From positions 1 through 50,997 of the IMG/VR virus record IMGVR_UViG_3300024431_000006: a stretch of 50,997 nt of DNA. One strand, 5' to 3'. The notes beneath the pieces are model-generated. The model worked only from the letters and a program-made list of their open reading frames with translations, did no database searches and was not told where the DNA came from. The translations under genes were made by a program, and so were the position numbers. Below, piece by piece: positions 1 through 40,229 of this stretch (positions are counted from its first letter, which is position 1; each line of letters begins with the position of its first letter). This stretch comes from a virus.

Positions 1-157
1 GGACGGCGACTACGGGGTTCGTGCGTCCCGTGTCCCGAAGGAACGCGCACACCGCGTGAGCCATGGCCTGGGAGTCCTTGCCGCCCGACAGGCTGAGGAC
101 GATGGTCGCGCCACGTTCGATGGCGTCCAGGATCGGCGCTGGGATGGTGAGCATCAT
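1..157 (-). CDS. PAPS reductase-like protein, N-terminal part (cut by window edge)
   Basis: The first 52 codons of an adenine-nucleotide alpha-hydrolase (PP-loop) protein run off the left edge. The motif SGGKDS at residues 24-29 is the ATP-pyrophosphatase loop of the PAPS reductase family, followed by the usual helix (QAMAHAV). The start is ATG at 157 or 154 and overlaps the stop of the gene before it. The matching C-terminal part, with RYCTSDLKR, lies at 50538-50997 on the same strand, so both are probably one gene cut by the linearisation of a circular map. Phage members may act in sulfur metabolism or in DNA or tRNA modification (DndC is a relative). The substrate cannot be told from this sequence. 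Confidence 0.85.
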   Translation of the reverse strand, partial: MMLTIPAPILDAIERGATIVLSLSGGKDSQAMAHAVCAFLRDTGRTNPVVAV

Positions 158-330
158 GCCCCCCTCCGGGCCATGTCCTGGCCGGTCTCAACCGCGTCGT
201 CAAGGTCGTCGGTGTAGTAGGCGGTGGCCTCATCGCCACCCCGGAAGTTGACCCGGAACTCGCCGTCCTCGCGGCGGATGACGATCCCCAGGGCTCTGAG
301 GATCATGCGTGCCCTCGCGAGGACCATCAT
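154..330 (-). CDS. Small conserved-type phage protein, 58 aa
   Basis: The start chosen is the ATG at 330, which overlaps the stop of the upstream gene (ATGA). A longer open frame reaches 396, but its extra N-terminus lies inside the upstream gene. The protein has a basic N-terminal helix (MMVLARARMILRALG) and then a short beta-rich part with the sequence TAYYTDDLDDAVETG. No catalytic motif is visible. It sits between two genes of the same leftward operon and overlaps both, which suggests coupled translation. Function unknown. Confidence 0.75.
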   Translation of the reverse strand: MMVLARARMILRALGIVIRREDGEFRVNFRGGDEATAYYTDDLDDAVETGQDMARRGA

Positions 331-710
331 GCGAGCCTCCGACCGGCCCAGCGCATCGCCTTCCACGTCTGGAACGTGCCGTCCTGGTCGATCCACATTC
401 CGTCGCTGAATCGCGCTGAGTCACGCCTCGTGGCGATGCCCCAGGAGTCGCCCTCGCTCCACACCGAGACACCAGGCATGATGTCGTTCAGGCGCTGCTT
501 GGTGGTCGAGGTCATCCACCCGCCCGTGGTCAGGAAGATCGGGCCGTCCTGGTGGAACTCCACGATGTTGGTCGCGTGGTACCGGACGGCGATGGTCGTC
601 GGCCCCACCTGGTGAACGGTGGTGTTGTGGCCGAGGGTCCGGGAGGTCGCGCCGTCCAGGAAGGTGAGCGCGTCTGCAAAGCCGGTGAGTTGAGTGGTCA
701 TGCGGGCCAT
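327..710 (-). CDS. Conserved-type phage protein of unknown function, 127 aa
   Basis: The start ATG at 708-710 is preceded by AGGAG and is the first gene of its operon segment. The middle of the protein has alternating beta strands and turns (VRYHATNIVEF, FLTTGGWMTSTTKQRLND). I recall similar patterns in small hypothetical proteins of many actino- and proteophages. There is no signal peptide, membrane segment or catalytic signature. A second in-frame ATG lies three codons downstream. Function unknown. Confidence 0.8.
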   Translation of the reverse strand: MARMTTQLTGFADALTFLDGATSRTLGHNTTVHQVGPTTIAVRYHATNIVEFHQDGPIFLTTGGWMTSTTKQRLNDIMPGVSVWSEGDSWGIATRRDSARFSDGMWIDQDGTFQTWKAMRWAGRRLA

Positions 711-1001
711 GGGTCCTGCTCCTGTCGTAGGTCTCGGAGCCTGAGTGGTCGTCGCTCCGTTGGCGTGGTGCTACCGCCTGGCCACACCTTCGGTGCTGAG
801 ACATGGCCCTGTCAAGCACTTTCGTCGGCCCCTCTGCTAATGCCGCGAAGGTACGCCACGCCCATGGGGTGACCACCGCCAGTCCGGGGCCATGTGCAGA
901 GAAGAAAACGGGGTCAGCGCACGCCTTCGGGAGCTTGCCCAGGTGCTCGTTTGCAGGGTAGGGTAGCAGACCGAAACACCCCCTGAGACAGGACGAAGAG
1001 C
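711..1001. promoter_or_regulatory. Divergent intergenic region between leftward and rightward genes
   Basis: No convincing gene lies here. It separates the leftward operon (start 710) from the rightward gene at 1002, so promoters for both directions are expected. A TTGACA hexamer on the minus strand at 815-810 could be a -35 box, but I see no good -10 box at normal spacing. A near copy of the leader motif reads GGAGCGACGACC on the minus strand around 745-757. The ten-base word GTGCTACCGC (about 768-777) recurs in the other non-coding locus near 5556-5565. Confidence 0.45.
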
Positions 1002-1442
1002 ATGGGTCGAGAGGAGACTACACCAAGCGTGATCCGGGCCGCGCTCAGAGGCGAGGTGCTGGGCCTGCTGCCGGAGATCGTGACCATCGTGCTGGATGAT
1101 GAGGAGCCCGCAGCCGCCCGCGTGAGGGCCTTCGAGACCATCGCACGGTATGGCCTGGGCGTGGCTGACATGGGGCAAGTGGTGATCGAGGTGGCGGGTG
1201 ACGCCCACTTCGGGGTGGTGGTCATGCCTGCCCTGGAGCAGCAGCGCATCGTGCTTGCAGAGGGGGACGGCGAGGAGGTCGAGGTAGTGCGTGAGCTACC
1301 CCCGGTGCATGGGGAGGCCATCCCCCAGGAGTTGAGCGTTGAGGTGGTGCCCCAGGAGGAGGCGAGCGGGGGTGCTGAGGAGGGCACGCTTGCAGAGGAG
1401 GGGGCAGCGGAGGAAGGAGGACCGGGCGAGCGTGCGGTGTGA
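1002..1442 (+). CDS. Acidic hypothetical protein, 146 aa (possible small terminase-like helical N-terminus)
   Basis: The first 55 residues are predicted helical (IRAALRGEVLGLLPEIV, AAARVRAFETIARYGLG). This spacing resembles small phage proteins that handle DNA at terminase or replication steps, but no terminase signature is certain. Residues 55-85 look beta-rich, and the last 60 are very acidic, rich in E, G and A. Codons such as CTT GCA GAG occur twice, matching the genome-wide YTTGCAG word. The gene stands alone, followed by 500 bases with repeats. Function is not assigned. Confidence 0.65.
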   Translation: MGREETTPSVIRAALRGEVLGLLPEIVTIVLDDEEPAAARVRAFETIARYGLGVADMGQVVIEVAGDAHFGVVVMPALEQQRIVLAEGDGEEVEVVRELPPVHGEAIPQELSVEVVPQEEASGGAEEGTLAEEGAAEEGGPGERAV

Positions 1443-1554
1443 GGGACGCGAGGGCAGGTGCAGGGGGGTGGTGGAAGGCGATGGCTGTGGGCTTGCGTCG
1501 AGTACGTTCCTCCCTCTCACACGATTCCACCCAAGAATCTCGTCGTTGTCGGCT

Positions 1555-1752
1555 GGTGGGACACCTTCTGGGACAGTTAGGACACCCCCGCTCACCGCAT
1601 AGATGTTGGGTCCTGGGCGGTACGTGTCCAAGCGGTGGACACCTTTCTGGGACAGTTAACCACCTGCTGTCACGAAACCTGGGACAGTTAGAGCACCCCG
1701 GAAGGCCAGCAGGCGCGCGGGTCCTGAGCGGTCGGTGTCCAAGCGGTGGGAC
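1555..1752 (+). repeat. Interleaved direct repeats (CTGGGACAGTTA x3 and a 32-base element x2)
   Basis: CTGGGACAGTTA starts at 1568, 1647 and 1679, each exact over 12 bases. The first two copies are also preceded by GGTGG(G)ACACCTT. A second element, GGGTCCTG-GCGGT-GTGTCCAAGCGGTGG in outline, occurs at 1608-1639 and 1719-1750 with about three differences. The two repeat types alternate on the same strand. The arrangement resembles iterons or an operator array rather than coding sequence. What protein binds is not known from this window. Confidence 0.8.
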
Positions 1753-1756
1753 GGTC

Positions 1757-1786
1757 TTGACAGGTTTCCCGTGACAAGAGTATGTA
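1757..1786 (+). promoter_or_regulatory. Candidate sigma70-type promoter
   Basis: TTGACA at 1757-1762 is a perfect -35 hexamer, followed after 18 bases by TATGTA, a poor -10 match. It points at the MazG-led operon and lies directly after the repeat array, where an array-binding protein could control it. The -10 weakness keeps confidence low. Confidence 0.35.
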
Positions 1787-1921
1787 GTAGGGGGGGGGTG
1801 AGGGCTGAAGAGGTAGGGTAGCTGAGGAGCGGAGTTACTCACGCGGGGGCGCGCGAGAGGGCTGGCACGAGTTCTGCACTGTTACACGAGTAGGAAATGG
1901 GCGCGACGACCACCTGGCGCT

Positions 1922-1930
1922 GAGACGACC
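1922..1930 (+). promoter_or_regulatory. GAGACGACC leader motif upstream of the MazG-like gene
   Basis: GAGACGACC ends 17 bases before the ATG at 1948. A second, partial copy (CGACGACCACCTGG) lies just upstream from 1904. The same word precedes starts in the minus-strand operon. The Shine-Dalgarno for this gene is a separate GGAGAG closer to the ATG. Confidence 0.6.
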
Positions 1931-1947
1931 ACACACCTGGAGAGACC

Positions 1948-2280
1948 ATGCCTCACTCGGGACCCCTGTACCAACTGGCTCTGGAGATTCTGACCATCAA
2001 CCGGGCGAACGGCTGGAAGGTCGTCGAGGTCAGTGACTGGGACTCATCCGACATCACCAAGATCCCGGCGAACCTGGCGCTGATCCACTCGGAGGTGTCG
2101 GAGGCCCTGGAGGGCTTCAGGCACAACGACCCGGTGAACTTCGCTGAGGAGCTTGCTGACATCATCATTCGAGTCCTGGACCTCGCTGGTGGGCTCAAGA
2201 TCGACATCGACGCTGAGGTCGAGGCTAAGATGGAGATCAACCGGCACCGGGGTGAGCGCCACGGAGGGAAGCGGATATGA
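1948..2280 (+). CDS. MazG-like nucleotide pyrophosphohydrolase
   Basis: The 110-residue length fits single-domain MazG-like proteins, which hydrolyse NTPs or dNTPs to the monophosphate and pyrophosphate using magnesium. The acidic motif of the all-alpha NTP pyrophosphohydrolase fold is visible: E52xxE55 in the first helix and E68xxD71 in EELAD of the next helix, with a basic C-terminal helix (EINRHRGERH). ATG at 1948 has GGAGAG 6-7 bases upstream. Phage homologues are thought to tune nucleotide pools or alarmone levels in the infected cell. It leads a rightward operon of small accessory genes. Confidence 0.88.
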   Translation: MPHSGPLYQLALEILTINRANGWKVVEVSDWDSSDITKIPANLALIHSEVSEALEGFRHNDPVNFAEELADIIIRVLDLAGGLKIDIDAEVEAKMEINRHRGERHGGKRI

Positions 2281-2330
2281 AAACGTCAGCGGTTCTCAGG
2301 AAGTGCCGACGTTTCCAGTGGCCATGCTGA
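2277..2330 (+). CDS. Possible 17-aa coupled mini-ORF
   Basis: ATG at 2277 overlaps the stop of the MazG-like gene (ATGA), and its own TGA overlaps the ATG at 2330 (TGATG). The peptide would be 17 residues, basic, with two cysteines. It has no strong ribosome site of its own. It may simply carry ribosomes between two coupled genes, or be chance. Confidence 0.25.
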   Translation: MKTSAVLRKCRRFQWPC

Positions 2331-2566
2331 TGGTCATGCTGACGAAGGCCCAGATGGAGTTCCTGCTGGAGCAGTCGAAGTTCAAGACAGTAATAGCCTT
2401 CTCAGAGTGCGGCACCGAGTTCCGTCTGCAAAAGCACACCGGCATCGGGTACTCGGAGGACCCCCGCTGGGGCACGATCCAGGCGGCTCTGAGCATCGGC
2501 CTCGAAGTCTACGCCAGGCGAGAGGCCGTGAAGGCTGGTGCGGTCGAGGTGGATGATGGCCTGTGA
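2330..2566 (+). CDS. Hypothetical protein, about 78 aa
   Basis: The open frame extends further upstream, but that part is a shadow of the MazG-like gene. Reasonable starts are the ATGs at 2324 and 2330, and 2330 is favoured because it overlaps a preceding stop. The protein has an N-terminal helix (LTKAQMEFLLEQSKF), a central beta part with FSECGTEFRLQKH, and a helical end. No known motif is seen. Its stop overlaps the GTG start of the next gene. Confidence 0.7.
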   Translation: MVMLTKAQMEFLLEQSKFKTVIAFSECGTEFRLQKHTGIGYSEDPRWGTIQAALSIGLEVYARREAVKAGAVEVDDGL

Positions 2567-3111
2567 AGGCCAGCCCGGAGCGCGTCGAGAGGTTCAAGGA
2601 CGAACTCCGGCACATCCTGGCGCATCACCATCCAGAAGTGCTGGAGGCCACGCGGGCAACGCTTCGGCGCGTCGGTCTACTACCTCCCCAGGAGCAGCGT
2701 ATGAGCGATGACAGCGAGAAGGGTCCGGGATACCTACTTCCCCCGCACCTGGAGTGGGCCAGGATCACCAACGACCAGGGGCCGAGTGAGTCCGAGACGT
2801 TCAGGCACCTGACCAGGCCGCTGATGGCGATCCGGTCGGTAGACCACGGGCGCTGGCACCTCAGTGTGAGCCACCGGGACCGGGTGCCGACGTGGGAGGA
2901 GCTTGGGATCGCTCGGGACGCTCTGCTACCCGAGGACGCCTGGCTCGCCCTACCGTGGCCACCCCGCAGATACTGGATCAACCACAACCGGCGCGTCCTG
3001 CACCTCTGGGCCTTCAAGGACCCGGAGCTTCAGGAGCAGTTCAAGTGGGAGGGAGAGATGGCCCAGAAGCTCCCGACCAACAAGCCACCAGACGGAGGAG
3101 AGGAGCAGTGA
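2563..3111 (+). CDS. DUF7694-like conserved phage protein, 182 aa
   Basis: The start is GTG at 2563, overlapping the previous stop (GTGA). The N-terminal 45 residues are helical and basic. The rest has the pattern HLSVSHRDRVPTWEEL, then ARDALLP, then LPWPPRRYWINH and VLHLWAF. I recall this pattern from the small phage family DUF7694, whose function is unknown. It is part of the accessory operon and overlaps the next gene by four bases. Confidence 0.75.
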   Translation: MKASPERVERFKDELRHILAHHHPEVLEATRATLRRVGLLPPQEQRMSDDSEKGPGYLLPPHLEWARITNDQGPSESETFRHLTRPLMAIRSVDHGRWHLSVSHRDRVPTWEELGIARDALLPEDAWLALPWPPRRYWINHNRRVLHLWAFKDPELQEQFKWEGEMAQKLPTNKPPDGGEEQ

Positions 3112-3488
3112 AGACGAAAGAGAAGCTCGCCCAGGTGCTGCACGCGGCGGGCCTGTTCGACATGGAGAAGGTCGCCCGCGCTGGCCGCTACGACGACTAC
3201 GAGTCGGAGTACCCGACGCCCATCCTGGATCTCGTCGATCACCTCCGGGGGCACGGTAATGATGATCTGGCGAGACGGGCCATGGACGGCGAGTGGGACG
3301 CCTCCAAGGAGGAGTCTGACGCCTGGGCCGAGAGCGAGGAGGGGCGCGAGCTAATGCGCGGCCTCGGGGACCCCAAGAACCTGCTCCCGCCGCACCAGAA
3401 GTTCAGCAAGTGGAAGGAGGGCGAGGAGACAGCCGCAGAGCGGGGCGCGAAGATCGAAAAGAATCTACCAAACCGAAGAGGTGCGTGA
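3108..3488 (+). CDS. Conserved-type phage protein, 126 aa
   Basis: The start GTG at 3108 overlaps the previous stop (GTGA). The pattern AAGLFDMEKVARAGRYDDYESE followed by DLVDHLRGHGNDDLARRAMDGEWD and SKEESDAW matches a small family that I remember as common in phages and uncharacterised. It is mainly helical and acidic with no catalytic motif. The open frame extends upstream as a shadow of the preceding gene. Confidence 0.8.
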   Translation: MKTKEKLAQVLHAAGLFDMEKVARAGRYDDYESEYPTPILDLVDHLRGHGNDDLARRAMDGEWDASKEESDAWAESEEGRELMRGLGDPKNLLPPHQKFSKWKEGEETAAERGAKIEKNLPNRRGA

Positions 3489-3742
3489 TGGCGAATGACG
3501 AGTACGCGGAAGCGGTTGGAGAGCAGGTGAAGAGGCTGGTCCAGACCCACGAGATCCTGGTGGTGTCCCAGGCGGAGGTGGCGGCCCGTAAGGTGCGCTA
3601 CGCCATCGGGAACTACATGGACACGGTCTACGCTCGCCTCGCCCGCGAGGACGGCGGACGGCTGGCGAAGGACGAGAAGAGCGACCCGGACCAGGAGGAC
3701 ATGGGCCTGGGAGGCACCAAGGAGCCAGACGATGGATCCTGA
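3488..3742 (+). CDS. Hypothetical helical protein, 84 aa
   Basis: ATG at 3488 overlaps the preceding TGA (TGATG). The protein is largely helical (YAEAVGEQVKRLVQTHEIL) with an acidic, glycine-containing tail. Composition and GC-rich third positions support coding. No family is recognised. Confidence 0.75.
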   Translation: MANDEYAEAVGEQVKRLVQTHEILVVSQAEVAARKVRYAIGNYMDTVYARLAREDGGRLAKDEKSDPDQEDMGLGGTKEPDDGS

Positions 3743-4013
3743 AGAGGAGGTCCAGAACCTGCGCGAGTGCCTGGACTGGCTGTGTCAGCAGTCGTGGGAG
3801 GGCGGCGACATCGACGGCGGCGTCTTCCAGGACGGCCTGGAGCGCATGGGCATCCTGGTGCGCGTACCCGCCACCCAGCAGTTTCGGGAGGAGTGGGACG
3901 CGGATGAGATGCTGATCCAGCGGTGGAAGGAGAAGGAGATCCGGGCGGTCCTCGAACTCGAAGCGATGGCCCAGGCTGAAGGCGGAGACCTACTAGGAGA
4001 CACCGATGTCTGA
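3732..4013 (+). CDS. Hypothetical acidic protein, 93 aa
   Basis: It overlaps the previous gene by 11 bases and the next gene by 8. Helical segments (EEVQNLRECLDWLCQQSW, IQRWKEKEIRAVLELEAMA) surround a short central part. No catalytic motif or membrane segment is seen. The dense overlaps point to coupled expression with the kinase gene that follows. Confidence 0.75.
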   Translation: MDPEEEVQNLRECLDWLCQQSWEGGDIDGGVFQDGLERMGILVRVPATQQFREEWDADEMLIQRWKEKEIRAVLELEAMAQAEGGDLLGDTDV

Positions 4014-4464
4014 TTACACCCTACTGCTCATGGTCGGGCTTCCCCGGAGCGGGAAGACGACCCAGGCCAGGAAGATCGCCCGCGAGCGCGGGGTGGCCGT
4101 CATGATCGTCAGCCCGGATGCTATCCGCATGGCGCTGCACGGCCAGCCGTACATCCCCACAGCGGAGCCCCTCATCTGGGCCATGGCGCGGATCCAGGCG
4201 CACGCGGCGTTCATCGCTGGCCACGAGTACGTCATCATCGACGCCACGAACACCACGGTGAAGCGGCGGGCGGAGTGGGTGAAGCTCGCCAAGGGCATCC
4301 CAGGCTGTGAGACGGCTGCGCTGCTCTGCGGGGCCACCATGGACCTGTGCCTGCGTCGAGCGGTTGCAGACGGCAGGGAAGACCTGATCCCTCCCATCGA
4401 GCGCATGAACGACGAGCAGGAAGAGATCGACGAGGAAGCTGAAGACATCCGGGTGCTCTTCTGA
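4006..4464 (+). CDS. P-loop kinase, polynucleotide-kinase-like
   Basis: This is a 152-residue P-loop kinase. Walker A is GLPRSGKTT (residues 11-19, K17). SPDAIRMAL at 36-44 fits the substrate-binding segment of the T4 Pnk kinase family, VIIDATNT at 76-82 is the Walker B/lid region, and two arginines near 117-118 fit the lid. T4 Pnk uses ATP to phosphorylate the 5'-OH ends of nucleic acid. Here the HAD phosphatase is a separate gene starting at the stop of this one (TGATG), so together they look like a split kinase/phosphatase. No RNA ligase gene is seen. Another zeta-toxin-like P-loop kinase role is possible. Confidence 0.85.
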   Translation: MSDYTLLLMVGLPRSGKTTQARKIARERGVAVMIVSPDAIRMALHGQPYIPTAEPLIWAMARIQAHAAFIAGHEYVIIDATNTTVKRRAEWVKLAKGIPGCETAALLCGATMDLCLRRAVADGREDLIPPIERMNDEQEEIDEEAEDIRVLF

Positions 4465-4859
4465 TGGGGGCCCCGTGGATCGGCTTCGACCTCGACGGCA
4501 CGCTCGCTCAGTACGACGGCTGGGCTGGGCCCACCGAGATCGGGGAGCCCATCTGGAAGATGATCTACGTGGTGAAGGCGATCATCGACACGCCCGTACA
4601 CGGCATCGAAGTCAAGATCATGACCGCCCGAGTGAGCGTGCCGGAGCAGGCCGACGAGTGCCGGGCAGCGATCCAGGACTGGTGCGAGAGGCACATCGGT
4701 GCCCGCCTGGAGGTCGTCTGCTGCAAAGACCTCGACATGCTCCTGCTCTACGACGACCGCGCCATCACGGTCGAGAAGAACACCGGGAGGATCCTGACCG
4801 CGCCGCAGGCCGGCGTGGTGGCGCTCGGGAATAGCTTCAGGAAGCCCGACGAGGACTGA
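4464..4859 (+). CDS. HAD-superfamily phosphatase
   Basis: HAD motif I, DLDGT, is at residues 9-13 (nucleophile D9, acid D11). T54 in KIMTAR is the motif II threonine, K88-D89 may serve as motif III, and DDRA near 97-100 fits motif IV. At 131 residues this is a minimal cap-less HAD domain. With the kinase directly upstream it may remove 3'-phosphates, like the C-terminal half of T4 Pnk. A nucleotide phosphatase role is also possible. ATG at 4464 overlaps the kinase stop. Confidence 0.85.
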   Translation: MGAPWIGFDLDGTLAQYDGWAGPTEIGEPIWKMIYVVKAIIDTPVHGIEVKIMTARVSVPEQADECRAAIQDWCERHIGARLEVVCCKDLDMLLLYDDRAITVEKNTGRILTAPQAGVVALGNSFRKPDED

Positions 4860-5071
4860 TGGAACTCCACTACAAGTACGGCGGATGGATCGCCTACGAG
4901 GACGATCCCATCGACTGGGACCGCATCGAAAAGGACGGCTGGCCGCTCGTTCTGAAGCGCGAGGACACCCTCACGCCGAAGATCGAATGGTACGCCGTCG
5001 CGGGGTGCGTGACCATCGCCATGATGGTCGCAGGATGGTGGGGGCTTGCGGCCTGGCTGATCGCACGCTGA
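4859..5071 (+). CDS. Small membrane protein, 70 aa
   Basis: The first 40 residues are polar and acidic. One hydrophobic segment spans about residues 45-68 (WYAVAGCVTIAMMVAGWWGLAAWLI) and ends in a lone arginine, so it is a tail-anchored inner-membrane protein. Its ATG overlaps the stop of the phosphatase gene. It is the last gene before the 700-base non-coding locus. Function unknown. Confidence 0.75.
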   Translation: MELHYKYGGWIAYEDDPIDWDRIEKDGWPLVLKREDTLTPKIEWYAVAGCVTIAMMVAGWWGLAAWLIAR

Positions 5072-5280
5072 TCTTTACAGGCGATAGACGACCCCCTGAG
5101 ATCGCACCAGATGCCCAGACGCTTCGGAAGACTTCAGAGACAGACCCTGGGGACCGCGCTGGCACGCACCACGCCAACACGGAATCCCAGGACCAGACCT
5201 TCGCGTAGAAAGAAGCGGGGTGGGAGGAAGATGCGGACTCAGAGGGGTCGTAGGTCATACTAAACGGCACCGACGTGGAT

Positions 5281-5292
5281 TTGGTCGTCTCC
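5281..5292 (+). promoter_or_regulatory. Anti-leader patch complementary to GGAGACGACC
   Basis: TTGGTCGTCTCC here is the exact reverse complement of GGAGACGACCAA. Nine to twelve bases of it pair with the leader motifs of the MazG, Acb2-like, helicase, RecT, AAA+ and other genes. There is no start codon after the minus-strand copy at this position, so it does not look like one more gene leader. Confidence 0.5.
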
Positions 5293-5301
5293 GTCGTGTC
5301 G

Positions 5302-5351
5302 GGGTGGGAGGATCGTAGGCAGTCCGGTGTTGCACCGGGCTCCTCCCACCC
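5302..5351 (+). terminator. Strong hairpin with T-rich tail (attenuator-like)
   Basis: GGGTGGGAGGA (5302-5312) pairs perfectly with TCCTCCCACCC (5341-5351). Inside it, GTCCGGTG (5322-5329) pairs with CACCGGGC (5333-5340) around a TTG loop, with a 9-base bulge on the 5' side. ATCTTTT follows at once, as in an intrinsic terminator. The same 12 bases GGGGTGGGAGGA also occur at 5217-5228 and could pair with the same 3' strand instead, so two exclusive folds are possible. It ends six bases before the tRNA-like structure. Confidence 0.6.
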
Positions 5352-5357
5352 ATCTTT

Positions 5358-5428
5358 TGCGGGTTAGCCGTGGGGCTCACCAGGGGTCATATCCCTGGAG
5401 GCGCGAGGTTCGATTCCTCCGCCCGCAA
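5358..5428 (+). tRNA. tRNA-Met-like (anticodon CAT) with aberrant D-arm
   Basis: A seven-pair acceptor stem joins TGCGGGT (5358-5364) to GCCCGCA (5421-5427), and A5428 is the discriminator. The anticodon stem CAGGG/CCCTG (5381-5385/5393-5397) holds a seven-base loop with T33 and anticodon CAT at 5388-5390. The T-arm has the loop TTCGATT (5409-5415) with four or five pairs. The D-arm is short (about 16 bases between stems) and lacks a normal GG loop. CCA is not encoded. It may be a working methionine or CAT-isoleucine tRNA, or a tRNA-like element that guides RNA processing. Confidence 0.65.
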
Positions 5429-5490
5429 CTTGCAGGAAGAGTCGGTGAGGGAACTTCGCCTTGGCGATGACAGCCCAACCTAACGTCCAC

Positions 5491-5511
5491 GCTGCAAAGC
5501 TGGAGGTAGTC
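5491..5511 (+). promoter_or_regulatory. 21-base patch complementary to the helicase mRNA
   Basis: The 21 bases at 5491-5511 are identical to plus-strand bases 39717-39737. Because the helicase gene is on the minus strand, a plus-strand transcript here would pair perfectly with its message over the Walker B codons (DYLQLCS). Flanks also match in part (CCA before, A after, with one mismatch each side). It could instead be a relic copy of the gene or a recombination footprint. Confidence 0.55.
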
Positions 5512-5756
5512 CACCGGCTCGCCCCCGTCGTCACGCATAGCGCGGGGCGGGGTTGTGCTACCGCGTGTCGCCACGAGGTAGCCTCCGGGTGGCCCTCGTC
5601 TCCCTTCGACGGACGGGCGGGGGTCACCAACTCTTGAGACGCGAGACCGCCCGGACATGCAAAACTCGGGGTGCTTAGTCCCCAGGCCAGTCACTGATGC
5701 TGGCAGTAGCGCGGGTGTGAAGGAGGTGCCGCGCCGGGCTCGCGCACGATAGCAGC

Positions 5757-5765
5757 GAGACGACC
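5757..5765 (+). promoter_or_regulatory. GAGACGACC leader motif upstream of the Acb2-like gene
   Basis: GAGACGACC ends 21 bases before the ATG at 5787. An AGGAG ribosome site lies between them, so here the motif is separate from the Shine-Dalgarno. Confidence 0.6.
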
Positions 5766-5786
5766 TACCCCCACCAGGAGCACGAT

Positions 5787-6140
5787 ATGCCCGACCCAGA
5801 GACCGTCGTTGGCCAGAACCCAGAAGCCCTGTCCGAAGGACCCGGAAGAACGAGCGACCCGGAAGACCTGGCCAAGAAGTCAGAGAGGTCAGAGAAGGCC
5901 CACCCCGCCGCCCGCCGCGAGCGCATCCAGATGACGAAGGCTCGCTTCCGCCACGTTGCTGTGCGTCAGGGCACGGAGCAGTCGGGCGCGATTCTCACCC
6001 TGACCGACGAGTTCGGCGCGCTTGCAGAGGTCATCGAAACCCGGTGTCACGACTCTCGTGAGAAGAGCACCGCGCTCACGCTGCTTTTGCAGGCCAAGAT
6101 GATGGCCGTACACGCGATCACGCATCGAGGTGGGGGATAA
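5787..6140 (+). CDS. Acb2/Tad1-hairpin-like protein (candidate anti-CBASS cyclic-nucleotide sponge)
   Basis: Residues 53-112 fit the small helical-hairpin family (former DUF7681) that includes the phage anti-CBASS protein Acb2. RF starts the domain at 53-54, and the hallmark CHDSREKSTALT is at 87-98, followed by a helix ending MMAVHAI. Acb2 forms oligomers that bind and sequester cyclic di- and trinucleotide signals made by CBASS, which blocks host abortive defence. Differences here are an unusual 50-residue, charged N-terminal extension and a histidine where I expect an aromatic residue after RF. ATG at 5787 has AGGAG 8 bases upstream. Function is inferred from motif similarity only. Confidence 0.7.
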   Translation: MPDPETVVGQNPEALSEGPGRTSDPEDLAKKSERSEKAHPAARRERIQMTKARFRHVAVRQGTEQSGAILTLTDEFGALAEVIETRCHDSREKSTALTLLLQAKMMAVHAITHRGGG

Positions 6141-6196
6141 ACCACTTCGGCACGACCCTTGCGGCTATCCTCAGTAGCATCGGAGGAGGGTTCGGG

Positions 6197-6811
6197 ATGG
6201 CACAGACTAGCAAATACGGGAGTCGGGTGACTGGCGACGGGCAGTACGTCCCGGAGCCGGCCACCCGGTCGGAGGCCAAGATGAAGCGCCTGGCAAGTGA
6301 GATAGGGGTGCGCCCTCCGCGTTATGGCGAGCAGCCCTTCTCCGGCGGCCCGAACGACAGGCCGTTCCCCCCGCGCTACGGCGAGACCCAGATGGCGAAG
6401 CTGGAGGCCGACGCACGCGACGTGTACATGAAGTGCGTGAAGGAGGCTGAGGTGGTGAAGGGCGGGTACCTCAACGAGCACGAGAAGAAGTCCATCAAGG
6501 TTCTCGTCGAGAAGGCGTTCCACGACGGCGGCGCGACCCAGAACATGCTCATGGAGGCGAAGCGTCGGATCGACCGGGGCCTCCCCACCGAGGGCATCTG
6601 GAAGAAGGTCACTGACGACGGGCTGAATCCCCTCCGCTTCGACGAAGAACAGTTGCGAAAGCTGGCCGACATCCCGACCCTGAAGCGTGGGGTGGGCGGC
6701 AGCTTCCCCCTGGGACGGGTACTCCGAGAGGTGCCGTCGCCGCCTCAGCCAGACGAGTACGCAGGGCTGACGACAGAGCAACGCGAGATCCTCGCAGGCA
6801 TGGAGGGATAG
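6197..6811 (+). CDS. Hypothetical protein, 204 aa
   Basis: ATG at 6197 follows GGAGGAGGG. The N-terminal 65 residues are low in structure, rich in P, R and G, with two copies of PPRYGE (about residues 39-44 and 58-63). The middle is helical (EADARDVYMKCVKEAEVV, HEKKSIKVLVEKAFHDGG) and the C-terminus is proline-rich. No enzyme motif or membrane segment is seen. It is the first gene of the segment leading to the 914-residue protein, and may be virion-related. Function unknown. Confidence 0.8.
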   Translation: MAQTSKYGSRVTGDGQYVPEPATRSEAKMKRLASEIGVRPPRYGEQPFSGGPNDRPFPPRYGETQMAKLEADARDVYMKCVKEAEVVKGGYLNEHEKKSIKVLVEKAFHDGGATQNMLMEAKRRIDRGLPTEGIWKKVTDDGLNPLRFDEEQLRKLADIPTLKRGVGGSFPLGRVLREVPSPPQPDEYAGLTTEQREILAGMEG

Positions 6812-6973
6812 ATGTGCAAACACGTCCAGTTCAACTTCGATGAAGCGATCAAGGAAGCCTGGAAGGACGCCCAGGAGGGCGACTCAGACAGGTGGGAGCC
6901 CCCCTCCAAGGAGGAGCGGAATGGGAAGCCACTGAGCCGAGAACAAGAAGCGATCTTGCAGAAGATGAGGTAG
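6812..6973 (+). CDS. Small hypothetical protein, 53 aa
   Basis: ATG at 6812 directly follows the stop of the previous gene and the frame closes at TAG 6971-6973. The peptide is acidic and helical (FDEAIKEAWKDAQEG, SREQEAILQKM) with an N-terminal CKH. It contains TTG CAG, in line with the genome word. It fills the gap between two clear genes, which supports coding. Function unknown. Confidence 0.65.
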   Translation: MCKHVQFNFDEAIKEAWKDAQEGDSDRWEPPSKEERNGKPLSREQEAILQKMR

Positions 6974-6989
6974 ACGGCAAGACTGAGGC

Positions 6990-9734
6990 ATGGCCCTCAC
7001 GAGTTTCGTCCCCAGGCGCGGCACCCGCCTCGACGGCGGCGTCTTCGATCCAGACGACCCGAAGAAGCGGCGTGGAGCGAAGAACGGTAATGGCCGTAAG
7101 GGATTCCGCCCCAAGGTCGCCCCCTCCCGCGAGGCCGAACAACTCGGTCCCATCGCCCAGGGAGACGGCTTCTACATGGACCGCAGCGGCGTGCTGCGCG
7201 CCAACCCGACGTTCCGGGAAGAGCAGCCCGACGCCGCTCGCTTCCCCTCCACCCGTCGCAGAGCGGGCGGTGGACCGAACCTACTGAGCCGGGTGCTCTC
7301 CAACTTCCGCATGACCGTGGACCCGACCCAGGAGGGGTTTGCAGACCGTGGCGTGCCCGGCCTGGTGACGGGCCTGATCCGGGACATCCAGCGGAACCCC
7401 ATCCCCTGGGCACCCTACATCGGTGACGCCATCGGCTTCCAGGAGGGCGGGGAGTTGGCGGGCGAGGGACAGCGCGAGGGCTCGCTGCTCAAGGAGTTGG
7501 GAGGCGCTGGCATCCAGGGACTCAGCCTGTTCGGCATGGGTGAACTCGGACGCCCGCTGGCGCGTGCCCTCTCGCGTGCGGCGGAGCACCCCGAGTTGAT
7601 CGGGGCCGTGGCCGCTGGCCTGAGACGGAAGCCTCTCCAGGGCGCTGCTCCCGACCCGACCCAGGAGCTTCTGGAGCTTGGTGACCCACGTAAGTCGCGC
7701 AACATCCCGGTGGAAGAGCACGGCCTGATGGAGACCGGCGATATGCCTGGTCGCTGGTTCAGCCGGACGGCCCGCGAGATCGAGGGTGCCCCGGACGAGC
7801 AGAGCGCCCAGGAGTGGCTCCGTCTGCTAACGGGTGAGGAGGGCACCCAGTTCACGCTGGCGGAACGTGGCTTCGTGACCGAGAGCGGGCTGGAGGGTCC
7901 ACTGCCCCACGGTACCCGGAGCGGGACGGCGACCACCAACGTGCGGAAGAAGAAGCAGGTCGATGTGCCCCAGCGCGAGGTCACCCAGACTCGTCTGGGC
8001 GATGTGCTCCGGGGTGGGGACCCCCAGAGGCCCGTCACGAAGCAGGAGCTTTTGCAGAGGATCGACGACCGGATGCCTCCGATGACGGAGACCATCTCCA
8101 CGGATGCGGCCTCAGAGTACGTGATTCCGGGCGGGGAGAACTACCGCGCCATCAGCATCGGGCTCGACGTGGAGAAGATGCAGGAGGAACTCATCCCCAG
8201 GCTCCACCGCCAGCTTGCAGCCGGGGATGAGATCAGGACGGGTTCGGGTATGCTGCGCCTCGACGGCGACGAGATCGTCCTCACAACGGGCGCTGGCCCC
8301 GGCAGGGTCGTGCCGAACACCGAAGAGGGTATCGCGGAACTCGCTCGCAGTCTCCCCGAGGGCGGGCTGCTGCCTCCTGGGTCGAGTGGCTCCCACATCG
8401 GCGGATCTGAGGAGATGATGCACCTGCGGGTGCAGGACAACTACAGCTTCGACGACATCAAGACCCTCGACGTGATCGAGCTTCAGTCGGACCTCTTCCA
8501 GAAGCAGGCACGCCGGGAGGGCACCGACCTCCCGTTCAGCCACTCAGACGACTTCACGGCGTTGCTCGTGCGACGTTCGTTCCGCGAGGCGATGTCCGGC
8601 GACTACCGGAGGATCTCGTTCCCGACCGGGGAGCAGATCATGGCCATCCCTGGCATGGGCGCGGACCAGCGAATCGCGGACTACTACGACAAGGTTGTGG
8701 AGCGTCAGGTGCGCCGGGTCACGAAGGAGCTTGGTCTCCCGGAGCCGGAGATTAAACACATCTACGAGGGCGGGATGTCGGAGGAGGCGCGGGACGAGGC
8801 TCTCAGCGAGGCCATCGACGAGATCGTGGGTGAGTGGGACCCCACCGACGCCGAAGAGGTGATGCGGACCAACTACCAGGATATGGTTCGTGAGGACATC
8901 GACGAGGTCTTCGACGTGGCGGAGTACCTCGACGAGGACGACTTCCTGAACAACGAGGGCCAACTCGACGAGGTGCTGTGGGAAGAGGCGGTGACCGATG
9001 CCCAGGAGTCGTACATCGCAAGCGCGGGCGAACACCTCGACTACAACGTCCCGGCTGAGTGGGAGGTGCGCGAGGCCGCGATGAACTACGAGAACTTCGA
9101 CCGCTGGCTGGAGAACAACTTCGAGGACTTCGCAGCCCACGGGGACCGGAGCCAACTGGAGACCATCTTCGACCAGGTCCAGAGTGCGTTCGAGGACCCC
9201 CACAGCTTCATCGACGACTTCGGCACTGGCGAGTCGTTCGGGTCCCTCGCCATCGACCTCCCGGAGCCGCGCAAGCCGTTCGAGCAGATCGACATGGAGA
9301 TCAGCGCCGCTCGCGAGAAGGCTCTGACTGGCGGAGGGGAGTTCGACAGGCGGGCAGACCCGACCGCCTCCAGGCTCCCAGGGGACCCTGAACGCCCCGC
9401 ACGTCGCGAAGGCGGCGACCAGCGGGCAGGGGGAGTGCGTAGAGGCAGCGGCCCGTCCTCCGACCCGATGGCCGAGGAAATCTGGTCGGGCGCGGAGCGT
9501 CGGGCCACCAACGACCTCGACCGGAGGGCCGTGGAGAGGGCCAGGGAGATGTCCAAGGAAGAGAACCTGGACCCCCTCATCCTGCTGCGGCGGGCGCTGG
9601 AGGAGCAGGAAAGCGGGCGGAAGCTCTCGAAGTACGAGCAGGCCAGGAAGGTGGGCATGAGGCTCTCAGCCCTGGTGGGCGCGACGGCTGTGGGATCGCA
9701 GGCTATGCAGCGCCGGAGAGAAGGTACCCGATGA
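6990..9734 (+). CDS. Large polyvalent-type protein, 914 aa (probable virion-associated)
   Basis: The N-terminal 95 residues are basic and disordered, followed by GFYMDRSGVLRANPTF and a region with hydrophobic helices (about 105-215). The central part around 370-550 has the pattern of phage polyvalent-protein domains: YRAISIGLDVE, HIGGSEEMMHLRVQD, KTLDVIELQSDLFQKQ, then ALLVRRSFREAMSGDYRRISFPTG. The next 200 residues are strongly acidic and helical. The C-terminus is basic, with AGATAVGS-like small residues. Such proteins are often packaged and injected. Its position just before lysis-like and terminase genes fits, but no activity can be assigned. Confidence 0.75.
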   Translation: MALTSFVPRRGTRLDGGVFDPDDPKKRRGAKNGNGRKGFRPKVAPSREAEQLGPIAQGDGFYMDRSGVLRANPTFREEQPDAARFPSTRRRAGGGPNLLSRVLSNFRMTVDPTQEGFADRGVPGLVTGLIRDIQRNPIPWAPYIGDAIGFQEGGELAGEGQREGSLLKELGGAGIQGLSLFGMGELGRPLARALSRAAEHPELIGAVAAGLRRKPLQGAAPDPTQELLELGDPRKSRNIPVEEHGLMETGDMPGRWFSRTAREIEGAPDEQSAQEWLRLLTGEEGTQFTLAERGFVTESGLEGPLPHGTRSGTATTNVRKKKQVDVPQREVTQTRLGDVLRGGDPQRPVTKQELLQRIDDRMPPMTETISTDAASEYVIPGGENYRAISIGLDVEKMQEELIPRLHRQLAAGDEIRTGSGMLRLDGDEIVLTTGAGPGRVVPNTEEGIAELARSLPEGGLLPPGSSGSHIGGSEEMMHLRVQDNYSFDDIKTLDVIELQSDLFQKQARREGTDLPFSHSDDFTALLVRRSFREAMSGDYRRISFPTGEQIMAIPGMGADQRIADYYDKVVERQVRRVTKELGLPEPEIKHIYEGGMSEEARDEALSEAIDEIVGEWDPTDAEEVMRTNYQDMVREDIDEVFDVAEYLDEDDFLNNEGQLDEVLWEEAVTDAQESYIASAGEHLDYNVPAEWEVREAAMNYENFDRWLENNFEDFAAHGDRSQLETIFDQVQSAFEDPHSFIDDFGTGESFGSLAIDLPEPRKPFEQIDMEISAAREKALTGGGEFDRRADPTASRLPGDPERPARREGGDQRAGGVRRGSGPSSDPMAEEIWSGAERRATNDLDRRAVERAREMSKEENLDPLILLRRALEEQESGRKLSKYEQARKVGMRLSALVGATAVGSQAMQRRREGTR

Positions 9735-10432
9735 GGGTAGGCACGATCATCCTCATCCTCATCCTGCTCGTTGTCACCGGGCTCTCGGTCCGGGGCATGT
9801 CAGCAGCCAGGAGGGACCTTGCAGTCGCAGAAGCGAACGAACGGGCCGCGCTCGACACGACGCGGACGCACCTCAGAGACTCAGTGGCTGCTTCTACCCG
9901 ACTCGCCGTCCAGGCGGCCATCATTCCTGACTCGGTGTCAGACGCGCTGGCCGAGGCTCTTCAGGATCGCGATGCGAACCTCGTGGCTTTTCAACGGTCG
10001 GAGATCGCCTTCGATTCGGTCGTTGCTCTCGGCCAGGTGGCCGCTGTGGACACCGTCTTCGTGGAGGGAGAAGACACGATCCGCGTCGTCACGTTCGAGC
10101 TTGAGGGACCGCCGATACGTGGCGAGCAGGTGGTCAAGCTCACTCCTGGGACGCCAGTCCCAGGCCAGGCCAGGCCCCTCTCTGTCACGCTCGACTCCCG
10201 ACTGGTGGTGAGCCCCTTCAGCATCACCTACGGCATCGCGTGTCAGAACAACGACCCAGTGTTCGCGTGGAAGACCCCGGACTGGGTGACCGCGACGTTT
10301 GCAGGGGGAACAGTCGAGCCTGACGTGTGCTACACTCCACCCCCCACACCCATTCTGTCGATCAGCGTGGGGAAGAGCGTGTGGCTGGCTGCTGGTGTAG
10401 CGGTCGGGTATCTTCTGAGCGAGGTCCGATGA
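9731..10432 (+). CDS. Membrane-anchored protein, 233 aa (spanin-like candidate)
   Basis: ATG at 9731 overlaps the preceding TGA (ATGA). One N-terminal membrane anchor spans about residues 4-20 (GTIILILILLVVTGLSV), followed by a coiled-coil-like helix (RDLAVAEANERAALD) and a long periplasmic-type beta-rich part with two cysteines. It ends in a second hydrophobic stretch (SVWLAAGVAVGYLL). Such topology occurs in phage inner-membrane spanins and in phage DUF6549-like proteins. Next to a putative holin it could act in envelope disruption. No family is certain. Confidence 0.65.
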   Translation: MRVGTIILILILLVVTGLSVRGMSAARRDLAVAEANERAALDTTRTHLRDSVAASTRLAVQAAIIPDSVSDALAEALQDRDANLVAFQRSEIAFDSVVALGQVAAVDTVFVEGEDTIRVVTFELEGPPIRGEQVVKLTPGTPVPGQARPLSVTLDSRLVVSPFSITYGIACQNNDPVFAWKTPDWVTATFAGGTVEPDVCYTPPPTPILSISVGKSVWLAAGVAVGYLLSEVR

Positions 10433-10442
10433 GGGAGGGGAG

Positions 10443-10808
10443 ATGTCAACGGAGGAGCGGAGGTCAAGGAACAGCAGCACAGGTGCGCCCACGCAGTTGA
10501 TGGTGGCCTACAAGGCGCTGCCGAAGAAGGACGTTCGGCGCTTCCAGTGGGTCGGCCTCGTGCTCATGGCCATGTCAGCGGTCTTCCTCCTGGCGGTGCC
10601 GATCTTCGTGCCGATCCCGGTGGTGAGCTACGTCGTCGCCGTCATCCTCTTCCTCGTCGGCGTCTGCTTCCTGTGGCCGCCGCTCGGCATCTGGGCGGCC
10701 TCCGCGATCCCGAACGGGGTGGCCAAGGTGATCCCCGGCATCGGTGGCCTCGTGAAGAAGGGGCTGCTCGACCAGATCCCCGACCGCCGCGACGAGGACG
10801 ACGCTTGA
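10443..10808 (+). CDS. Two-segment membrane protein (holin candidate), 121 aa
   Basis: A polar basic N-terminus (residues 1-34) precedes two hydrophobic segments, about 37-57 (VGLVLMAMSAVFLLAVPIFV) and 61-85 (VSYVVAVILFLVGVCFLW), then a polar acidic C-terminus. This is a class II holin-like topology. It sits directly after a spanin-like gene and before the terminase. The lysin gene is far away at 37086, so a holin role is only a guess. Confidence 0.55.
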   Translation: MSTEERRSRNSSTGAPTQLMVAYKALPKKDVRRFQWVGLVLMAMSAVFLLAVPIFVPIPVVSYVVAVILFLVGVCFLWPPLGIWAASAIPNGVAKVIPGIGGLVKKGLLDQIPDRRDEDDA

Positions 10809-10812
10809 CCAC

Positions 10813-10838
10813 CCCCAGGGGTGTAGGGTACCCTGGGG
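10813..10838 (+). promoter_or_regulatory. Hairpin over the terminase ribosome site
   Basis: CCCCAGGG (10813-10820) and CCCTGGGG (10831-10838) form a perfect eight-pair stem around a ten-base loop. The 3' strand contains the only G-rich Shine-Dalgarno candidate for the terminase ATG at 10842. The stem could hide the ribosome site or end upstream transcription, but no T-tract follows. Confidence 0.55.
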
Positions 10839-10841
10839 ACC

Positions 10842-12347
10842 ATGATCGAACAGAAGGTCGTCTGGACCCCAAACTCACGCCCCCAGGAGCTATTCTGCGC
10901 CTCCACTGAGGACGAGGTCTTCTACGGCGGCGCGAAGGGGTGCGCGAAGTCGGACGCCATCCTGATGGCCGCGCTCCAGCAGATCGACAAGCCGCAGTAC
11001 AAGGCGCTGATCCTCCGCCAGACGTTCCCCGAGGTCCAGGAACTCATCGACCGTAGCCACCGCCTCTTCCCCCAGATGCGGGGCGCTCCCCAGTGGTCGG
11101 GCCAACTGAAGCGGTGGACCTGGGCGGGTGGTGTCGTCCTCCAGTTCGGGTACTGCAAGACGAAGGACGAGGTCCAGCGGTACCACGGCCAGGAGTGGGC
11201 CTACATCGGGTTCGACGAGGTGGCCGACGTTCAGGACGAGCGCGTCTGGGTGATGCTCCAGGCGGAGAATCGCTGCCCGAACAAAGACGTGCTCTGCTTC
11301 ATGCGCGGCACGGGCAACCCTGGGAAGCCGGGGCACCCCTGGATCAAGAGGCGCTTCATCGACCCCTGCGGTTTGCAGGGCGAGAACGTCTACCGCTACC
11401 GCTACGAGATGCCGGGCCTCCCACCCGTCGAACTCACCCGCCGGTTCATCCCCGCTCGCGTCACTGACAACCCGGTCTACGCGAACGACCCGAAGTACAT
11501 GTCGCGGCTCTACAGCCTACCCGAGATCCTGCGGAAGCAGCTTCTCTACGGCGACTGGAGCGCCGGGTTCGGGATGGCGCTCGACGAACTCGACGCCAGC
11601 GTCCACATGGTCCAGCCGTTCGACATCCCTGCAAACTGGGTGCAGTTCGGGGCCTTCGACTGGGGGTACAACCACCCCTGGGTCTTCGGCCACTACGCGG
11701 CCTCCGAGGACGGGGTCATCGTGAAGGTGAACACGTACTCGGGCCGCTTGCAGAGCGACCGCCAGATCGCTGAGACGATCATCGACGTGGTGGACATCAC
11801 GAAGCTCCGGTACGTGACGGCGGGGCATGACTGCTGGGCTCACCACAAGTCCAGGGCGGACGACAACACCCCGTCCACGGCAGAGCGGTTCATGGAGTAC
11901 GAGATCCACCTCAGCCAGGCCAACACGGGTCGCTACGCCGGTCTCAGGAACTTCCGCGAGCAGGTGGCGTGGAAGGGGATCCTGAACCAGGGGACGATGG
12001 ACGGGGAGCCCAACTTCTACATGATGGACACGCCCCAGAATCGGAAGTGCTTCGAGACCCTCCAGGGCATGATCGTGAACCCCGAGGACCCCGAGGACGC
12101 GCTGAAGGTGGACGCGGACCCGGTCACGGGAGAGGGCGGCGACGACGTGTACGACGAGACGCGCTACGCGCTCGCGAGCCGTCCAGGGCGTGCCGAGACC
12201 AACTGGCAGGACCAGCCCGTGAGGGCCTTCGACCGGGCCGTGCTGCTCCACGAGATGGAGAAGCGGAGGCACACCGGACAGCCGGTCCAGGACCCTGACG
12301 ACATCAACTACGACGACCTACCCCAAGATGGAGTGCTGCTACTGTGA
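10842..12347 (+). CDS. terL: Terminase large subunit (packaging ATPase-nuclease)
   Basis: This motor pumps DNA into the prohead and cuts the concatemer. The ATPase domain shows a P-loop, GGAKGCAKS, at residues 29-37, with K36 as the conserved lysine, and Walker B YIGFDE at 121-126 with catalytic E126. The C-terminal RNase-H-like nuclease begins near FGAFDWGYNHPW, with further acidic residues in TAGHDCW and the DVYDETRYALASR segment near the end. At 501 residues it is normal for the Terminase_6 group. The start is ATG at 10842, behind a hairpin. No clear small subunit lies directly upstream. Confidence 0.95.
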   Translation: MIEQKVVWTPNSRPQELFCASTEDEVFYGGAKGCAKSDAILMAALQQIDKPQYKALILRQTFPEVQELIDRSHRLFPQMRGAPQWSGQLKRWTWAGGVVLQFGYCKTKDEVQRYHGQEWAYIGFDEVADVQDERVWVMLQAENRCPNKDVLCFMRGTGNPGKPGHPWIKRRFIDPCGLQGENVYRYRYEMPGLPPVELTRRFIPARVTDNPVYANDPKYMSRLYSLPEILRKQLLYGDWSAGFGMALDELDASVHMVQPFDIPANWVQFGAFDWGYNHPWVFGHYAASEDGVIVKVNTYSGRLQSDRQIAETIIDVVDITKLRYVTAGHDCWAHHKSRADDNTPSTAERFMEYEIHLSQANTGRYAGLRNFREQVAWKGILNQGTMDGEPNFYMMDTPQNRKCFETLQGMIVNPEDPEDALKVDADPVTGEGGDDVYDETRYALASRPGRAETNWQDQPVRAFDRAVLLHEMEKRRHTGQPVQDPDDINYDDLPQDGVLLL

Positions 12348-39336: not shown

Positions 39337-40229
39337 GGCTTCTTCACCTTTTTCTCACCAGGCCAGGTCCCCTCCTCGTGGGGCTCCTGCTCCCGGCAGC
39401 GGAGGGTGTCGTAGTTCCACTCTATGGGCACCTCACCGTGGGGCCCGTGCCGATTCGTCAGGACGAGCCAGGTGCGTCCGCTCTTCCTCGTCCGCTCGAA
39501 GCGGCTGTGGTCGATCAGCATGATCTGGTCGGCGGTCGCTTCGATAATCATCCCGCCGTGGAGGCCCTGGGGCATCGGGGTGTCGTGGTAGTTCTTGCTG
39601 GTCTCGCGGTTAAACTGTGACAGCGCGATGACCGTCGTCTCCGTCTCACGGGCGAAGGCGTGCAGCCAGTTGGTGGTCTCCCCGACAGCCTGGTTGATCT
39701 TCTTGTCGTCGCCCAGGCTGCAAAGCTGGAGGTAGTCGATCACCAGCCACTCGACCCCGTCCTGCCGCATGTCCTCGACTGCCGCCTGCACCAGCTTCAA
39801 CTCGTACATCCGGTCGTCGTTCACGAGGAAGTTGTGCTCGTTTTGCAGAGGGGCCATGTCCTTCCACACCTTCCTGAAGTGGGCCTCCGTGAAGCCCACC
39901 TTCTCCAGCTTCCAGATCGGGGTGCTCGTCATGATGGAGTAGAGGCGAGCAGCTAACGCGGGGGCCTTCATCTCCAGCGAGATGAACCCGACCGTCTCCC
40001 CCTCCATCATCGCCCTGGCGGCCATCGCCAGAGCCAGGATGCTCTTCCCGAACTTCGGGTTGCCCCCGATAATCGTGAGCCAGCCCTTGGCCAGCCCCAC
40101 TCTGCCACCGTCGTCTCCGCAGCAGCGGTTCCATCCGTCGAAGGGTGTAGGTGTCGCCTGGACGGGTGCGAGTTGTCGTTCCTCGAACGCGGCCCGGAAG
40201 CTCGCGTCCATGATGTTCACGTAGGCCAT
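39333..40229 (-). CDS. DnaB-like replicative helicase, RecA-fold core (298 aa)
   Basis: Walker A is GGNPKFGKS (residues 55-63), Walker B is WLVIDYLQL (161-169, D165), and ALSQFNRE near 205 and LTNRHGPHGEVPIEW near 270 are the usual sensor and arginine-finger region of DnaB/gp4-type hexameric helicases. The N-terminal domain of full DnaB is missing, so this is a core-only phage form. ATG at 40229 has the GAGACGACC motif three bases upstream. The Walker B codons (39717-39737) match the non-coding locus at 5491-5511 exactly. Confidence 0.9.
   Translation of the reverse strand: MAYVNIMDASFRAAFEERQLAPVQATPTPFDGWNRCCGDDGGRVGLAKGWLTIIGGNPKFGKSILALAMAARAMMEGETVGFISLEMKAPALAARLYSIMTSTPIWKLEKVGFTEAHFRKVWKDMAPLQNEHNFLVNDDRMYELKLVQAAVEDMRQDGVEWLVIDYLQLCSLGDDKKINQAVGETTNWLHAFARETETTVIALSQFNRETSKNYHDTPMPQGLHGGMIIEATADQIMLIDHSRFERTRKSGRTWLVLTNRHGPHGEVPIEWNYDTLRCREQEPHEEGTWPGEKKVKKP

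Follow-up and report, generated by a model that had tools for sequence, protein, structure and literature searches.

The DNA analysed here (the window) comprises 50,997 bases and corresponds to one complete IMG/VR viral record, belonging to an uncultured group of phages. Its late genes lie on the plus strand, between roughly 5.8 and 37.9 kb; most of the early genes, between 37.9 and 50.9 kb, lie on the minus strand. Genes elsewhere in the genome abut or overlap; the locus studied here separates an accessory gene (4859-5071) from an Acb2-like gene (5787-6140).

5072-5786, plus strand (late-gene strand): non-coding locus without an ORF of coding composition; fold z -2.32

A first-pass annotation made from the letters of the window had described these 715 nt as non-coding, and their composition agrees: ORFs in 5072-5786 on either strand lack the codon-position G+C pattern of the phage genes, and a protein-coding reading of the locus was rejected on this ground. 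A minus-strand ORF (4971-5270), for which the patch described below could have served as leader, was likewise rejected as its composition is not coding. A very basic peptide (MPRRFGRL...RRKKRGGRKMRTQRGRRSY) could be read from an ORF of 50 codons at 5111-5263, whose codon composition is unlike that of coding sequence. The surroundings of the locus showed no sigma-70-like promoter.

The protein encoded directly downstream (5787-6140), an Acb2/Tad1-hairpin protein, is likely an anti-CBASS sponge, and an Acb2/Tad1-hairpin gene also lies near the terminase in relatives G002 and G003. Just upstream of the locus, 4006-4859 holds an AAA_33 polynucleotide-kinase-like kinase gene and an adjacent, weakly polynucleotide-kinase-like gene. 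Further downstream, 6990-9734 encodes a 914-aa ORF with no Pfam or PHROG match and no IMG/VR relatives; used as query, this neighbour protein recovered no relatives.

A terminase-based search found eight relatives (G001-G008) of about 70% identity and others (G013-G019) at greater distance. The same search in bacterial genomes returned none, the closest terminases of annotated phages are just ~37% identical, and no close homologue of the locus was found in annotated phages.

The window and its relatives also show extreme restriction-site avoidance. Of 64 six-base palindromes, 48 are absent from the window, with 213 occurrences observed against about 950 expected. Among the absent ones, many with 20-57 copies expected, are CGATCG, CGGCCG, CCGCGG, CCCGGG, GAGCTC and CTGCAG; GGATCC, TGGCCA and TCGCGA occur at or near the expected frequency. 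G002, G003, G004, G006 and G007 each lack 46-47 palindromes, in sets that differ partly between phages. One-base neighbours of absent palindromes are over-represented, for example TTTGCAG (34 versus 1.4); TTTGCAG was rejected as a regulatory motif because its enrichment follows from the missing CTGCAG.

A motif at early gene starts has its complement in the locus

The sequence GAGACGACC occurs 11 times on the two strands of the window, compared with 1.7 +/- 1.3 times in shuffles. Eight copies sit 0-27 nt ahead of start codons and two fall in coding sequence (23844 and 50580); the remaining copy, on the minus strand at 5283-5291, is the patch. The chance probability that 8 of the 10 non-patch copies fall inside 35-nt leaders is 3e-12.

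1922-1930, plus strand: leader motif GAGACGACC, MazG-like gene (start 1948)
5757-5765, plus strand: leader motif, Acb2-like gene (start 5787)
40233-40241, minus strand: leader motif, DnaB-type helicase gene (start 40229)
41622-41630, minus strand: leader motif, RecT gene (start 41620)
45447-45455, minus strand: leader motif, directly ahead of a 109-aa gene of unknown function (start 45446)
49259-49267, minus strand: leader motif, AAA_5 ATPase gene (start 49238)
50206-50214, minus strand: leader motif, DUF6011 gene (start 50203)
50523-50531, minus strand: leader motif, 68-aa gene (start 50518)
5283-5292, plus strand: patch GGTCGTCTCC, complement of GGAGACGACC in early leaders

The first-pass annotation had reported a patch complementary to the leaders of at least eight genes on both strands. 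This complementarity is present, and the motif count lies far above the shuffle control that had been proposed for it (11 copies against a shuffle maximum of 5). In six of the eight leaders the preceding T is also matched, giving 10-11 pairs with the patch. One of the eight targets lies in cis, as 5283-5291 is complementary to 5757-5765 in the Acb2-like leader on the same late-strand transcript; judging from the sequence, this pairing might regulate the Acb2-like gene.

A structured RNA domain upstream of the late operon

Six relatives (G002, G003, G005, G006, G007 and G008) carry a domain of about 125 nt, D1, in non-coding sequence on the late strand, upstream of the terminase and late operon. 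D1 was identified from synteny and folding, and leader data played no part. Three hairpins (a, b and c) are enclosed by a closing helix of 14-15 bp, in which GGCGUCAGGNAGG pairs with CCUNCCUGGCGUC. Compensatory changes affect 22 of the 41 pairs in a five-sequence alignment, a count that no shuffle or slid control approaches, and 88% of the alignment cells pair, whereas shuffles give 75% and slid controls no more than 48%. A D1 covariance model recovers all members at 72-117 bits, which for the sequences that built the model is so by construction. D1, with its strong covariation, is a new structured RNA domain. Rfam, including GOLLD and ROOL, gave no match to D1 or the locus at the gathering or a relaxed threshold, and G013-G019 showed no D1 match. 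An additional candidate member from a pattern search was rejected (14 bits, coding sequence of an unrelated contig), and two AT-rich matches to the pattern GGTTTTGTCGTTGCCGTC were taken as chance. Short basic ORFs starting with MP lie near D1 in G007 and G008.

In the window, the best match to the R1 model within positions 1-12,000 falls inside the locus and contains the leader-complementary patch.

5212-5357, plus strand: D1-like domain, best R1 model match in 1-12,000; fold z -3.48
5218-5228, plus strand: 5' arm of the closing helix (GGGTGGGAGGA) in the fold
5265-5302, plus strand: hairpin b in the fold, with the leader-complementary patch in its tip
5322-5340, plus strand: hairpin c (TCCGGTGTTGCACCGGGC) in the fold
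5341-5351, plus strand: 3' arm of the closing helix (TCCTCCCACCC) in the fold

This match scores 12.4 bits (E 0.12), is not significant alone and is nearly equalled by the next one. The fragment folds with the D1 topology of a closing helix and inner hairpins, but a competing helix is available, as an identical copy of the 5' arm at 5302-5312 competes for the same partner. The GGUC part of the patch is unpaired in this fold and its remainder lies in the upper stem. Like D1 in the relatives, the locus precedes the terminase and late operon on the late strand, and its loop is complementary to the phage's own early-leader motif (p 0.0025 for the leader complementarity of the window RNA). Structure alone is not proof of membership; because the R1 match is weak and the duplicate arm offers a competing helix, we consider it likely, and not more than that, that the window RNA belongs to the D1 family.

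Loops and leader motifs change together between lineages

The window motif GGAGACGACC is entirely absent from the relatives. An unbiased k-mer over-representation search of the leaders returned different top words for different phages: GAGACGACC in the window, TCGAAAGGA in G006 and G007, and GGGAGAGAA, CGCAAACC and CACACAGGA in G002; the word in G003, ACGCAGTA, is weaker. Complements of the top leader words sit in the D1 of the same phage. Leader motifs in G013-G019 were never as strong as those of the window or G006/G007.

The correspondence is bipartite in G006 and G007. Their leaders have the form CTCTCTCTCTCGAAAGGA-N(4-9)-ATG, and the leader sequence CTCTCTCTCGAAAGGA (CTCTCTCTC-TCGAAAGGA) matches loop b CCUUUCGA plus loop c GAGAGAG, so that two loops could pair with two adjacent leader parts in antiparallel order. 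CTCTC stands ahead of TCGAAAGG in 5 of 7 G006 leaders, where 1.2% is expected (p 6e-9), and in 3 of 6 G007 leaders. For G002, CGCAAA matches loop c UUUGCGU and CACACAGG matches loop a CCUGUGUG; for G003, CGCAGTA in three early leaders matches UACUGCG in D1. Most of these seeds are predicted to be unpaired, with values of 0.52-0.88 where D1 as a whole averages about 0.3. The AAA_5 ATPase gene illustrates the change within one orthologue: its leader has GAGACGACC in the window but CGCAAACC in G002, and either motif matches the RNA of the phage that carries it. Separately, some G002 leaders have a small hairpin AGCCC-NNN-GGGCT between CGCAAA and the ribosome binding site, as in stretch L025 (497-533 and 1048-1085).

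Loop and leader motif thus co-vary between lineages at the level of sequence, a joint change that points to a single RNA with the early messages, as a set, for its targets. A comparison of patch and motif in related phages had been set beforehand as a check on the annotation, and it bore the proposal out for this patch: the differing loops of the relatives complement their own differing leader motifs.

The leader motif could instead be the binding site of a phage protein acting in translation or transcription, with the locus copy serving as an autoregulatory site or decoy and the complementarity arising as a by-product of an inverted copy. Dispersed motifs near gene starts are found in other phages with no demonstrated RNA partner (the cluster K SAS, PMC3203893), and the distance from motif to start varies from 0 to 27 nt, both of which suit a protein site. 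Such a site does not account for the locus copy being always the complement and placed in D1 loops across several lineages, and a single site leaves unexplained why two loops match two adjacent leader parts in G006/G007. We consider the protein-site explanation rather improbable.

Each leader set matches its own RNA best

Cognate matching was quantified by counting exact 7-mer complements between early leaders and D1, with leader starts assigned by a simple rule and leaders overlapping D1 left out (G002 and G003). The cognate lineage scored highest in all five leader sets. Window leaders scored 142 with their own RNA and at most 20 with other lineages (shuffle p 0.0025). The corresponding values were 30 versus 6 for G002 (p 0.021), 6 versus 0 for G003 with its three leaders (p 0.0095), 28 versus 20 for G006 (p 0.003) and 96 versus 44 outside G006/G007 for G007 (p 0.001). 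G007 leaders scored 84 with the RNA of G008, a sister with the same loops. G006 and G007 are not independent; combined over four lineages, Fisher's method gave p 9e-7. Among 50-nt pieces taken from within early genes, the observed value was reached in 0 of 200 in each phage.

The signal has limits. Late-gene leaders of the relatives score 0-2; window late leaders score 52, part of this complementarity being anti-Shine-Dalgarno-like, and the window signal is therefore not confined to early genes. Hexamers gave a weaker excess (p 0.09 for G002). Raw duplex energies favour the cognate RNA in the window only, and are not discriminating because they are driven by G+C content.

These values bear on whether chance and composition could produce the matches, pyrimidine-rich loops simply meeting purine-rich ribosome binding sites. 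Part of the excess is indeed anti-Shine-Dalgarno-like (CUCCUCC occurs in several D1s), and the failure of raw duplex energies to favour cognate pairs fits such an origin. Dinucleotide shuffles, the D1s of other phages and the coding controls nevertheless all score lower, and generic ribosome-binding-site complementarity was rejected for this reason; moreover, the G002 and G003 motifs, CGCAAA and CGCAGTA, are unlike a Shine-Dalgarno sequence. An origin by chance and composition is very improbable in our view.

The helicase patch and the tRNA-like fold

Downstream of the D1-like domain, the locus contains two further features.

5357-5428, plus strand: non-canonical tRNA-like fold, T-loop TTCGATT, CAU at the anticodon position; z -2.6
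5491-5511, plus strand: helicase patch, exact 21-nt complement of helicase message 39717-39737
39717-39737, minus strand: helicase message segment (Walker B codons) matched by 5491-5511

The annotated pairing of the second patch, perfect over 21 bases across the Walker B codons with partial matches in the flanks, is present and exceeds shuffles. Including the flanks, the match has 79% identity over about 61 nt (E 6e-8; locus span 5484-5538). Shuffles of the locus give 13.2 nt on average and at most 15, and the 21-nt match is therefore not chance. It covers the DYLQL codons, a segment that matches the helicase genes of relatives over 14-15 nt. The minus-strand reading of the locus, AMRDDGGEPVDYLQLCSVD, shares with the helicase sequence, DMRQDGVEWLVIDYLQLCSLG, both DYLQLCS and the preceding MR-DG residues. 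The relatives have no counterpart of the patch. From its sequence, it looks like a piece of the helicase gene in inverted orientation, acquired in the lineage of the window. It could act as an antisense RNA, a role to which the relatives lend no support. The proposal of a multi-target antisense locus holds up in the comparison for the first patch, and the helicase patch, missing from the relatives, falls outside it.

A stronger version would make the helicase patch the functional part of the locus, an antisense RNA whose sole target is the helicase message, and would treat the match to the leaders as incidental. The length of the exact match, far beyond that in shuffles, is what recommends it. 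Set against this are the absence of the patch from relatives, the residues shared on the minus strand, as expected of an inverted gene-fragment duplication, and the predicted locus fold, in which the patch is mostly paired (mean unpaired 0.35). We regard a helicase-only antisense function as extremely improbable.

The segment 5357-5428 folds into a cloverleaf-like shape. ARAGORN calls no tRNA there, and the one Rfam candidate, tRNA-Sec, stays under the cut-off at 21 bits (E 0.17); the annotated tRNA-like element is thus present as a fold (z -2.6) and is not recognised as a tRNA by either tool. No tRNA was called in the relatives examined, and a relaxed T-arm scan of the relatives found one distant tRNA-like element only, in G006, and none adjoining D1. 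The G006 element (33430-33496) is a short one, GGCCCGG...GGGGTTCGACTCCCC...CCGGGCC, in a non-coding gap, and ARAGORN did not call it in the stretches of G006 that were scanned. The suggested release of two RNAs by RNase P and tRNA processing is unsupported, because there are no tRNA calls and the relatives have just this one distant element, not beside D1. The adjacent kinase-like genes at 4006-4859 and the tRNA-like fold might together form an RNA-repair module.

A model for early-gene control by D1

The main reading starts from what the genomes display directly: the position of D1, the fold of the relatives with its covariation, the complementarity excess in each phage and the co-variation of loops and leaders. 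We infer from these a stable D1 transcript that would act in trans, repressively and at a particular time. At a probability of roughly 0.6, D1 acts on the early messages as a regulon by base-pairing, and most likely keeps them from being translated in late infection.

A structured D1 RNA would be made from the late strand with late transcription, and its loops would pair with the motif common to the early-gene leaders of the same phage. Pairing in the window and in G006/G007 would cover the Shine-Dalgarno sequence and start region and lower translation, such that replication, recombination, nucleotide and counter-defence functions could be switched off as a group. Strand and position make it plausible that early genes are shut off in the late phase. 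Repression is less obvious in G002 and G003, because their motif lies upstream of the ribosome binding site; decay or activation of the message may be the outcome there instead.

The flow of control could also run the other way, with D1 leading the late operon transcript at its 5' end and abundant RNAs from early leaders pairing with its loops to hold off or release late expression early in infection. In all members D1 lies on the late strand upstream of the terminase and late operon, as this arrangement would have it; the complementarity data fit it equally, and the window has a cis complementarity between 5283-5291 and the Acb2 leader at 5757-5765. Against it, a single stable RNA facing many leaders is the usual arrangement of regulator and targets, and in the window and G006/G007 the matched part of the early-gene leaders lies on or next to the Shine-Dalgarno site. 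We judge the reverse flow unlikely and retain the reading in which D1 acts on early messages.

Going further, D1 may represent a new class of regulator, a junction-shaped RNA of the late phase whose several loops read a bipartite address in leaders to silence an early regulon, with loops and address re-coded jointly in each lineage. We put this broader claim forward tentatively, at a little under even odds.

Comparison with known systems

The phage early-to-late switches known so far are mainly protein or promoter circuits. In bacteria, multi-target sRNAs use unpaired loop seeds that pair with the Shine-Dalgarno regions of many messages. D1 resembles them in having loop seeds complementary to many translation starts; unlike them, it has both partners encoded by the phage, and its fold is a multi-hairpin junction. 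GOLLD and ROOL sometimes occur near tRNAs. They are large structured RNAs encoded by phages (PMC12286853), whereas D1 measures about 125 nt and has no Rfam match. Closer in kind are the phage base-pairing RNAs lambda OOP, aQ, P22 sar, PreS, VpdS and 24B_1, which act on one or a few targets or on host genes (PMC12197685). They share with D1 that a phage-encoded RNA pairs with messages, but none of those described there relies on a leader motif that recurs across many early genes of its own phage and changes along with the RNA loop from one relative to the next.

The nearest parallel to the leader motif is the start-associated sequence (SAS/ESAS) of cluster K mycobacteriophages, which overlaps the ribosome binding site of many non-structural genes (PMC3203893, PMC12699233). 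Its partner was left open as 'either RNA or protein' (PMC3203893), and its role was still termed unverified in 2025 (PMC12699233). Like the window motif, the SAS is a short conserved motif at many gene starts of one phage group; its consensus is GGGATAGGAGCCC, compared with GGAGACGACC in the window. Unlike for D1, no RNA partner has been described (PMC3203893, PMC12699233), and hairpin fold and location differ.

The K1 phages Adephagia, Anaya and Angelica each have a single SAS copy on the complementary strand. The Adephagia (JF704105) copy, at 58682-58694, sits in a strongly folded non-coding gap (58447-58878; z -5.25), where it forms part of a strong hairpin's loop (CCUCCUAUCC), and in Anaya it is likewise in the loop of a gap hairpin. 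A blastn search with the Adephagia gap region matched 177 Mycobacterium phage records. In Amgine and Shadow1 the SAS is kept and the loop is no longer its exact complement; a changed SAS had been predicted for Amgine from its altered loop, and this prediction failed, the SAS being unchanged there and retained in Shadow1. Because both phages keep the SAS despite a changed loop, cluster K is a lead rather than support.

The address that D1 would read may have counterparts in the start-associated motifs of other phages. The D1 model bears on what the cluster K SAS binds, as the Adephagia hairpin carries the complement in its loop. If the model is true, D1 is a phage-encoded post-transcriptional master switch with a simple, rewritable code that co-evolves with its address.
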